Shown piece after piece: positions 55,711 through 59,550 of a stretch of DNA of 64,000 nt. The stretch is from assembly GCF_019753765.1 (NCBI RefSeq), contig NZ_JAIJZW010000003.1:1-64000 (forward strand). The letters run 5' to 3'. The DNA comes from Microbacterium marinilacus (GTDB taxonomy: Bacteria > Actinomycetota > Actinomycetes > Actinomycetales > Microbacteriaceae). Every line of letters starts with the position of its first letter. Position 1 is the first letter of the stretch. Both the position numbers and the translations under genes were made by a program. The notes under the pieces were generated by a model. It did no database searches. It was given only the letters and a program-made list of their open reading frames with translations, and had not been told where the DNA came from.

Positions 55711-56631
<921 letters not shown>

Positions 56632-56742: not shown

Positions 56743-56847
56743 CGAGACGGCGCTCCCCGGGCGAGACAGACATCGCCGGGCGAGACAGGCGCCGCCGGGC
56801 ACGGTGTCGCCCGGGGAATGCGGTCTCGCCGGCCGGGCGCGGTGTCG
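56743..56847. repeat. 19-bp-phased array: three direct and three inverted units
   Basis: Direct units CGAGACGGCGCTCCCCGGG (56743-56761), CGAGACAGACATCGCCGGG (56762-56780) and CGAGACAGGCGCCGCCGGG (56781-56799) follow in perfect 19-base phase. Reverse-complemented units occupy 56791-56809, 56810-56828 and 56829-56847, also in 19-base phase, overlapping the last direct unit by nine. The RNA or DNA could fold into a long imperfect hairpin. It lies after the DtxR-family stop on the minus strand. Confidence 0.8.
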
Positions 56848-56855
56848 CGGGCGGG

Positions 56856-57488
56856 TCAGTCGGTGAGCCAGATGACGTCGGCGGCGCCGTCGGGGAGGGC
56901 GGTGGGCTCGCCGCCGATCTCGAGGCCGGGGCGGGCGACCTCCACCTCGAGGCCGACCGCGATGCCCGCGCGCTCGATGAGCCGCAGCAGGCCCGGGTCG
57001 CGGTCGCTGACGCGCAGCACGCGGCCGACGTGCCCCGCGGGCGCCTCGGCCAGCAGCACGAACCGCTCCCGCGCGACGCGCCCGTCGGCGTCCGGGATGG
57101 GATCGCCGTGCGGGTCGGAGCGCGGGCGTCCGAGCCGCTCGTCGATCTTCTCGAGCAGACGGTCGCTGATGGTGTGCTCGAGCACCTCGGCCTCTTCGTG
57201 CACCTCGTCCCACGCGTAGCCGTACTCCTCGACCAGCCAGGTCTCGATCAGCCGATGCCGCCGGACGGTCTCGAGCGCGCGACGCTCGCCCTCGGGGGTG
57301 AGACGGACGGCGCGATACGGCTCGTGCGCCACGAGGCCCTGCGCGCCGAGCTTCTTGACCATCTCGGTCACGCTCGACGGCGCGATGCCCAGCTTGGCGG
57401 CCAGCACCGACGGCGTGATGGGCGCGTCCTGCCACTCGGTGTGGGCATAGACGGTCTTGAGGTAGTCGTCGATCGCGGGCGAGGGCAC
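56856..57488 (-). CDS. DtxR/MntR-family metal-dependent regulator
   Basis: The 210-residue regulator starts VPSPAIDDYLKTVYAHTEWQDAPITPSVLAAKLGIAPSSVTEMVKKLGAQGLVAHEPYRAVRLTPEG, the DtxR winged helix. The dimerisation domain has the metal-binding set RHRLIETWLVEEYGYAWDEVHEEAEVLEHTISDRLLEKID (E/H ligands), and a C-terminal FeoA-like SH3 domain follows (GHVGRVLRVSDRDPGLLRLIERAGI). It represses metal-uptake or storage genes when Mn2+ or Fe2+ is bound. GTG 57488 is the family start after GAGG. It is divergent from a SpoU methyltransferase. A neighbouring target gene is not visible. Confidence 0.9.
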   Translation of the reverse strand: MPSPAIDDYLKTVYAHTEWQDAPITPSVLAAKLGIAPSSVTEMVKKLGAQGLVAHEPYRAVRLTPEGERRALETVRRHRLIETWLVEEYGYAWDEVHEEAEVLEHTISDRLLEKIDERLGRPRSDPHGDPIPDADGRVARERFVLLAEAPAGHVGRVLRVSDRDPGLLRLIERAGIAVGLEVEVARPGLEIGGEPTALPDGAADVIWLTD

Positions 57489-57506
57489 GCCTCGATGGTA
57501 CGGGGA

Positions 57507-58236: not shown

Positions 58237-59550
58237 TCAGGCCGCCGGTGCGGAGGCGGTGCCGGTGGGCACCGGCTCAGGCGTGGTCGACGTCTTCGTG
58301 CTGGGCGACGGCGCGGGGGTGCTCGGTGCAGGCGCCGGAGTGCTCGGGGCCGGTGCCGGTGTGCTCGGGGCCGGTGCCGGCTTCGTGGGCTCCGGCTCCG
58401 TCGGCGCGGGCTCGGTCGGCGTCGGCTCGGTCGGCGTGGGCTTGGGAGTCGCCGGCGGCGTGGTCGGCGTCGGGGTGGGCGTGGCCGGCGGGGTCGTCGG
58501 CGTCGGCGTGCCCGTCGGGGCAGGTGTCGGCGTGCCGGTCGGCGTCGGCGTCGGGCTCGGCGTCTTCGTGGGCGTCGGCGTCTTGGTGGGCGTCGGCGTG
58601 GGGGAGGGGCTCGGCTTCGCCGGCTCCTGCGTCCCGGCGGGCACCGGCGCGGGCGCGACGGGCGCGACGGAGCCGGTCGGCAGGTCGGGGATCTTCACCG
58701 AGCCGTTCAGGTAGGCCAGCGGATCGCGGGCGACGCCGCCCACGCGCACCTCGAAGTGGAGGTGGTTGCCGAAGCTGCGTCCCGTGTTGCCGACGCCGCC
58801 GAGCACGTCGCCCGCCTCGACCCAGTCGCCCACCTTCACCTGGCGGGTGCCGTTGGTCATGTGCCCGTAGAGGGTCTGCACGCCGTCGAGGTGCTGCACG
58901 ATCACCGCCACCCCGTAGCCGTAGTAGCTCTCGCTCGAGAGGACGACGATGCCCGGAGCGGCCGAGCCGATCGGCGTGCCGGCGCCGGCGGCGAGGTCGA
59001 GACCCATGTGGCGGCCGCCGCGCGCGCCGAAGACGTCGGTGATGGAGATCTGCGCGAGGGGCCAGCTCAGGCCGCCGAGCGAAGCGAGGTACGCGGCGTC
59101 GGCGGGGGCGAACCGCGAGAGGTCCACGTCGATGCCCGCCGCGATGGCGGCCTCGATGAGCTCGCGGCCGTCGTCGCGACGGATCTCGGCGAGCTCGTCC
59201 ACCGTGGTCGCCGCATAGGCGCTCGGCGACAGGTTCGCCTGGCGCATCGCGAGCTCGGCCTCGAGACGTTCGGCCTCGGCGGACACGTGCGCGCCCGCCG
59301 GCGCGAGGTCGGTGGGCGCCAGCCGGCCGTCCCACTCGCCGTCCTCGGCGGCGCTCGCGAAGGCGGCCTCCACGGCGATCGAACGCGGCTGCGCCTCGTC
59401 CGACACCGACGGCACGGCCGCCGCGACCAGTCCGGTGGGAAGGGTCAGCAGCCCCAGCAGCGCGATCGCCACGCCCGGGCGCACGACGGCTACCGCGCGC
59501 GGCGAGCCGGCCGGCGCGGGGCGCTTCTGCGCGTTCGATTCAGGCTGCAT
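58237..59550 (-). CDS. M23-family endopeptidase with long Pro/Thr tail
   Basis: The 437-residue protein starts after GGGGGGAAATC at ATG 59550. A cytoplasmic basic stretch and a membrane/signal helix (PGVAIALLGLLTLPTGLVAAAVP) lead out of the cell. A linker and a peptidase M23/LytM domain follow: ITDVFGARGGRHMGLDLAAGAGTPIGSA with the zinc ligands H and D, then QTLYGHMTNGT and GNHLHFEVRV with the HxH pair. The last about 140 residues are low-complexity Pro/Thr/Ala repeats. Such enzymes cut peptidoglycan cross-bridges during growth or division. The tail probably spans the cell wall. All three metal ligands are present. Confidence 0.9.
   Translation of the reverse strand: MQPESNAQKRPAPAGSPRAVAVVRPGVAIALLGLLTLPTGLVAAAVPSVSDEAQPRSIAVEAAFASAAEDGEWDGRLAPTDLAPAGAHVSAEAERLEAELAMRQANLSPSAYAATTVDELAEIRRDDGRELIEAAIAAGIDVDLSRFAPADAAYLASLGGLSWPLAQISITDVFGARGGRHMGLDLAAGAGTPIGSAAPGIVVLSSESYYGYGVAVIVQHLDGVQTLYGHMTNGTRQVKVGDWVEAGDVLGGVGNTGRSFGNHLHFEVRVGGVARDPLAYLNGSVKIPDLPTGSVAPVAPAPVPAGTQEPAKPSPSPTPTPTKTPTPTKTPSPTPTPTGTPTPAPTGTPTPTTPPATPTPTPTTPPATPKPTPTEPTPTEPAPTEPEPTKPAPAPSTPAPAPSTPAPAPSTPAPSPSTKTSTTPEPVPTGTASAPAA

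Follow-up and report, generated by a model that had tools for sequence, protein, structure and literature searches.

REP elements, which are abundant and have long been puzzling, are dispersed palindromes located near gene 3´ ends; the HuH-type RAYT is their known partner, and for some REP classes no partner is known (PMC3733652). One class without a known partner, the CGTC-tagged REPs, shows REP-like placement in the absence of an associated transposase gene and is distinguished by stems of 8-9 bp and rare clusters; five phyla are listed for it, Actinobacteria not among them (PMC3733652). AbiEi of the AbiE type IV toxin-antitoxin system, in turn, binds inverted repeats, one of them an 11-bp repeat whose halves are 27 bases apart (PMC3985639). 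Here we describe an array of short phased repeats in Microbacterium marinilacus which has the dispersal and placement of REPs, and relatives of which bracket a gene for a protein with an AbiEi-like half and a nuclease-like half.

The array lies in a 64,000-nucleotide stretch of M. marinilacus DNA (contig NZ_JAIJZW010000003.1), hereafter the window, with the following features:

56743 to 56847, no strand assigned: whole mirrored array, three direct and three inverted cores in 19-bp phase
56743 to 56786, plus strand: left arm of the array, CGAGAC cores at 56743-56748, 56762-56767 and 56781-56786
56787 to 56803, no strand assigned: central gap of the array, 17 nt (gap-17 class)
56804 to 56847, minus strand: right arm of the array, inverted cores at 56804-56809, 56823-56828 and 56842-56847
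55711 to 56631, minus strand: ABC transporter ATPase gene, given for context
56856 to 57491 (upper end approximate, start codon tentative), minus strand: gene for a DtxR-type metal-dependent regulator (Fe_dep_repress, Fe_dep_repr_C, FeoA)

As the original prediction had it, three direct units are followed by three inverted ones in 19-bp phase (core-to-core steps of 19, 19, 23, 19 and 19), and the nine-base overlap proposed for the center is that of the 19-base units at 56781-56799 (third direct) and 56791-56809 (first inverted). The inverted core at 56823 is exact (GTCTCG), and those at 56804 and 56842 (both GTGTCG) each carry one mismatch, making the window copy somewhat degenerate. Gene calls also place the array where it had been described, between the DtxR-family gene and the ABC exporter, both on the minus strand, 8 nt past the stop of the former and 111 nt ahead of the start of the ATPase gene of the latter. 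Nothing was found that ties the array specifically to either gene. By its sequence, the DtxR protein has its six nearest relatives in Microbacterium (68-82% identity), and the CGAGAC array is absent from the 330 nt downstream of dtxR in the six Microbacterium relatives inspected. Other palindromes were noted after dtxR: a mirrored array with core TCGCAG and 18-bp phase in Microbacterium sp. RM46_bin.030 (L062:5665), and a long GAGTCGAAACGC-type palindrome, distinct from the CGAGAC arrays, within 330 nt in M. stercoris (L060). In the window itself, a loose search for the unit gave 8 matches against 4.6 expected, which is not significant (at least 8 in 12 of 100 shuffles); the significance of the array derives from its exact phase and its recurrence across the genome rather than from the window alone. 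Rfam returned nothing at gathering score in the 64 kb. Elsewhere in the window, short-period GTCGGC-type tandem repeats at 58298-58602 lie where a peptidase-like protein (named by eye) on the minus strand has its Pro/Thr-rich tail.

The unit, for which a wider search had been suggested, has many related copies, and the case of an array without relatives thus does not hold. About 18 such arrays are present in the source genome, where the 19-bp tandem pattern occurs exactly 44 times and the same pattern reversed not once, and where 44 of the 95 CGAGAC pairs at gaps of 7-19 have the gap of 13 that corresponds to a 19-bp step. Across the genus, exact array patterns were detected in 71 of 119 genomes and in none of the controls; a 2+1 pattern had a central gap of 17 in 45 genomes and of 28 in 29, three of which (G004, G099 and G134) had both, and neither exact pattern was found in the other 48. 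All 108 arrays delimited in eight genomes, in regions picked by the tandem pattern, have a gap of 17 or 28 save four with 36, which equals 17 plus one lost 19-bp step. The bases between cores vary from copy to copy yet conform to a dialect, such as CGAGACCGCA in the source genome, CGAGACCCC in G014 and CGAGACCTCA in G032, and some genomes have more than one. Two genomes without the exact patterns, G013 and G005, contained one and two intergenic-looking mirrored arrays, respectively, with other cores in 18/19-phase in 400 kb sampled from each, as well as one coding-looking phase-15 match in G005; nowhere else in the 400-kb samples were the long forms of these alternative cores seen again. The broad pattern CGAGAC-N12-34-GTCTCG proved to be mostly background and was discarded as evidence.

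Several other repeats were seen along the way. Three palindromes of the form GAGTGCC-TATGGCACTC in 31-bp phase occur in the source genome (L164:621 and L181:7016), operator-like TTTGCAAAG sites in 14-bp phase occur at two loci with orthologous genes in common (L182:1573 in G014 and L251:3456 in G029), and G053, from another genus of the order, has a recurrent 26-bp palindrome, CGAGACCGGT-ACCGGTCTCG.

Recent copying within a genome is not apparent. At their variable positions arrays are about as divergent as column-shuffled arrays, with a slightly greater likeness in three of the seven genomes compared; there are no near-duplicates, which rules out recent transposition copies, and the near-identical copies that characterize a MITE within a genome were not found. 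A DNA-uptake signal was also set aside, since about 18 arrays are far fewer than the at least 1,000 copies given for uptake signals (PMC1852404). Of 32 array pairs linked across genomes by a shared candidate orthologue, 15 have candidate orthologues on both sides, several of these with different dialects or gap classes. Vertical inheritance and repeated targeting fit these matching positions equally.

Neither the genus-wide family, nor its placement at gene 3´ ends, nor a partner protein was part of the original prediction, because a single window cannot reveal them. The partner became visible from array pairs 0.5-1.5 kb apart: six of 12 inspected, from six separate genomes, enclose members of one protein family, about 320 aa long and composed of an AbiEi-like half and a nuclease-like half. 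The source-genome cassette (L175) carries the same CGAGACCGCA dialect as the solo arrays of that genome; C/G runs split its gene over two reading frames. These runs, up to 29 C or G bases at L175:3139-3259 on contig C28, may be an assembly fault or real. The source genome also has a second, uninterrupted homologue (L352:1501-2457, contig C2), the flanking arrays of which have a CGAGAA core, gap 17 and a different dialect. No homologue of the nuclease-like gene lies within the 64-kb window. In G014, G119 and G029 the cassette sits beside a gene read by eye as ilvE, and in G017 a single array occupies the site between the same two neighbors that bracket the cassette in G014.

Homologues were found in at least 110 of the 119 genomes, with 1-9 per genome; since scoring was limited to 18 first-look candidates in each genome with a threshold of E <= 1e-10, these counts are minima and an absence is provisional. 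The nine genomes with no detected homologue have at most two array matches apiece. The 30 best loci comprise six seeds and 24 others, and among the latter a first scan placed mirrored arrays no more than 200 nt from the match on both sides at nine and on one side at seven, and found none at eight. We also compared the 5´ and 3´ flanks of each gene with each other, a measure independent of the cores, against 544 control genes, which, like those used for the classifier described below, came from G013, G005 and other genera and not from array-rich genomes. Flank likeness was above the 99% control level at 21 of the 22 testable non-seed loci and above the highest control at 20. For 20 lower-ranked loci (three, L389-L391, chosen for a known adjoining array, five chosen to test genomes with both array classes, and one with too short a flank), 12 of the 19 testable exceeded the control maximum, two more the 99% level, and five fell below. 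Long palindromes were found on 47.7% of the sides of the non-seed loci among the 30 best, as against 1.2% for 300 genes of G013 and G005 and 9.0% for 200 genes from array neighborhoods. Of 30 homologues from other families of the order, 18 were above the 99% level and 16 above the highest of the 544 controls, with palindromes that have different cores and a step of 20 or 23, indicating that the arrangement extends beyond Microbacterium. Some homologues in these other families are flanked by GTGATCATG-type direct repeats (L367, L380 and L381).

Both halves of the protein resemble known folds. AbiEi profiles (PADLOC) match all six members of an alignment made from five intact array-bracketed cassettes and one G029 relative found by synteny, with a best value of 1.6e-15. 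In a predicted model (pLDDT 77.5), residues 19-196 align with AbiEi (6y8q; Z 9.4, rmsd 6.2), and residues from about 197 to 307 align with I-Bth0305I (Z 9.8, rmsd 3.0, 93 residues), which we take to be a member of the Vsr-like homing family, and with Vsr itself (Z 8.0). Foldseek gave no match to the model at E <= 0.001, the best being the AbiEi-like Rv2827c at E 0.013, and unrelated chains also appeared at Z of about 8 in the structure comparison (VIA list), so we hold the fold assignment, including a Vsr-like PD-(D/E)XK fold for the C-terminal half, with moderate confidence. Asp235, Glu246, Asp248, Gly249, Lys252 and Tyr253 (D...E-x-D-G-x-x-K-Y) are invariant in the six members, as would be expected for a PD-(D/E)XK nuclease. 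Pfam gave AbiEi_4 alone, weakly and below cut-off, NCBIfam a single weak match far below cut-off, PHROGs no match for the partner protein, and an alignment-based sequence search of solved structures nothing meaningful. The putative enzyme differs from homing endonucleases of the Vsr and I-Bth0305I types, which its C-terminal half resembles in the model, in being fused to an AbiEi-like half and encoded in intergenic, array-flanked cassettes. Likeness to AbiEi, by profile and by predicted fold, lies in the N-terminal half; here there is no second gene between the arrays (one gene each in the five intact seed cassettes, none of them for an AbiEii toxin), a nuclease-like domain is joined on, and the sites are dispersed.

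The central spacing of the arrays tracks the protein subfamily. A tree of 49 homologues splits at its midpoint into clades of 30 and 19 proteins (support 0.86 and 1.0), and the gap was 17 in all 22 classifiable members of the first and 28 in all 11 of the second, an association that depends on this one deep split. The classifier, which leaves the gap free between 10 and 35, fixes the step at 19 and uses cores selected after inspecting the flanks, fires for 33 of the 49 homologues (six seeds included) and for one of 1074 control flanks. G134 and G099, which have both array classes, also encode proteins of both clades.

We favor, with a probability of roughly 0.6, the reading that the window array is a solo, non-coding copy of a REP-like element, the cognate protein of which combines AbiEi-like and Vsr/I-Bth0305I-like halves and would drive its spread as a nuclease. 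Like REPs, the arrays are dispersed extragenic palindromes in tens of copies with family-specific sequence, lying past stop codons and between convergent genes, and the protein gene is flanked by its own palindromes, the same arrangement in form as for RAYT but with an unrelated protein. The Microbacterium units, in contrast, consist of short cores in 19-bp phase, direct then inverted, around a gap of 17 or 28. No GTAG or CGTC tag at a palindrome end was noticed by eye in the array listing. The Y1/HuH transposase (PF01797) is missing from all 35 Microbacterium genomes searched, with five of 14 control genomes positive, which rules out a REP with RAYT; the transposase being absent and the protein unrelated, we use REP-like as a working term and do not assign the element to REP/RAYT. 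Several results sit less easily with the REP-like reading: arrays within a genome show no sign of recent copying, recurrence at matching gene ends suits vertical inheritance equally, and no array was found in the first scan at eight of 24 non-seed loci, with five of 19 in the second sample below the 99% control level.

In the proposed mechanism, the AbiEi-like half would read the array cores together with the central spacing of 17 or 28; the 27-base spacing of the AbiEi repeat is close to the 28-base gap, an analogy that we treat as a lead. The nuclease half might then nick or cut DNA at or near array sites, and repair would copy the array, sometimes with the whole cassette, to new places. Such copies would persist mainly where they are harmless, directly after stop codons, and a transcribed array hairpin may end or protect transcripts.

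That last step could also be the whole function. The arrays may be a host 3´-end element, not selfish and inherited vertically, that is retained because its hairpin terminates or protects transcripts, or keeps convergent genes insulated, with the protein a host factor acting on it. Placement suits this alternative: 50 of the 108 arrays lie between convergent genes, 49 between co-directional genes, three between divergent genes and six inside predicted genes, the last probably calling errors of the codon-based gene finder. Arrays lie a median of 20 nt past the stop codon between convergent genes and 26 nt past it between co-directional ones, in the latter case with the following start codon 90 nt away, and both arms are equally intact at co-directional sites, which rules out a directional half-site. 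An ordinary hairpin is present at 15 of 27 convergent gaps without an array, as against 14 of 125 pieces adjoining arrays, four of the 14 being further arrays, and the matching gene ends between species point the same way. However, REPs show identical 3´-end placement (PMC3733652), so placement cannot separate a host element from a REP-like one. The patchy distribution, with both exact patterns missing from 48 of 119 genomes and no CGAGAC array in the 330 nt after dtxR in six relatives, also argues against a host element.

The original prediction had offered a large hairpin or a cooperative protein-binding site, and each idea fits part of the evidence: most copies form long stable hairpins, and the cores are conserved letter by letter. 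Array copies from seven genomes with several arrays fold with median z of -4.8 to -9.2, in keeping with a 3´-end function; the hairpin of the window copy is weak on the dtxR strand (z -1.0) and moderate on the other (z -3.4). Compensated pairs at the center of gap-28 arrays (z 6.7 in G014 and 6.6 in G029; 1.7 in G002) likewise favor a host hairpin. Among 1284 core cells 50 deviate: one as a compensated pair, 16 with a G-U pair retained and 33 with the pair broken. Together, the covariation at centers and the near-invariance of cores indicate that structure counts at some centers and letters count at the cores. In five of seven genomes covariation is lacking from the outer spacers; the exceptions are G017 (z 4.3), a genome that mixes two dialects, and, weakly, the source genome (z 2.4). 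This lack and that of a U-run both weigh against the host element: a T-rich stretch follows in just three of 214 array flanks in the seven genomes, in agreement with the earlier remark that no standard terminator is matched, and a canonical intrinsic (Rho-independent) terminator is ruled out. We regard a host element without a mobile component as unlikely. The arrays may nonetheless end or protect transcripts for the host and be REP-like as well.

Two further alternatives have less to recommend them. The flanking arrays could be the nuclease-like gene's own 5´ operator and 3´ terminator, with solo arrays as sites of its regulon, as inverted repeats, the 11-bp repeat with the N27 gap among them, serve AbiEi to repress its own promoter (PMC3985639); solo arrays, however, lie at gene 3´ ends rather than promoters, and at many loci the 3´ flank of the gene has an array and not a plain hairpin, and we consider this very improbable. 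Finally, U-less (I-shaped) intrinsic terminators with stem letters alike by chance and no dedicated protein, reported and disputed for mycobacteria (PMC12288462), would suit the hairpins and the position after stop codons, but they leave the cassette link and the gap-subfamily link unexplained and do not predict a phase fixed at 19 or cores fixed as sequence (one of 50 deviations compensated), and we consider them very improbable.

Returning to the REP-like reading, a wider form of it is possible, at slightly less than even odds: a class of mobile palindromic elements, represented in several families of the order, whose phased mirror arrays would be spread to gene ends by an AbiEi-Vsr-like nuclease with the central spacing as its ruler. 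We hold as tentatively that this class would have arisen in convergence with REP/RAYT, from an enzyme of unrelated kind. No literature linking AbiEi or DUF559 proteins to palindromic repeats appeared among the matches listed, in a search with most subscription journals outside its coverage, and we found no earlier description of a partnership between such a repeat and a nuclease-like protein, which is weak evidence of novelty. The matched pairs of protein and array, with spacings of 17 and 28 and several core dialects, allow direct tests of recognition, mobility and transcript ends. If correct, the element class would account for many orphan 'AbiEi-domain' genes in Actinobacteria, and a common orphan protein family would gain a role. 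If the protein is indeed a second partner, chemically unrelated to RAYT, the combination of a dispersed palindrome with a dedicated DNA enzyme would have arisen more than once.
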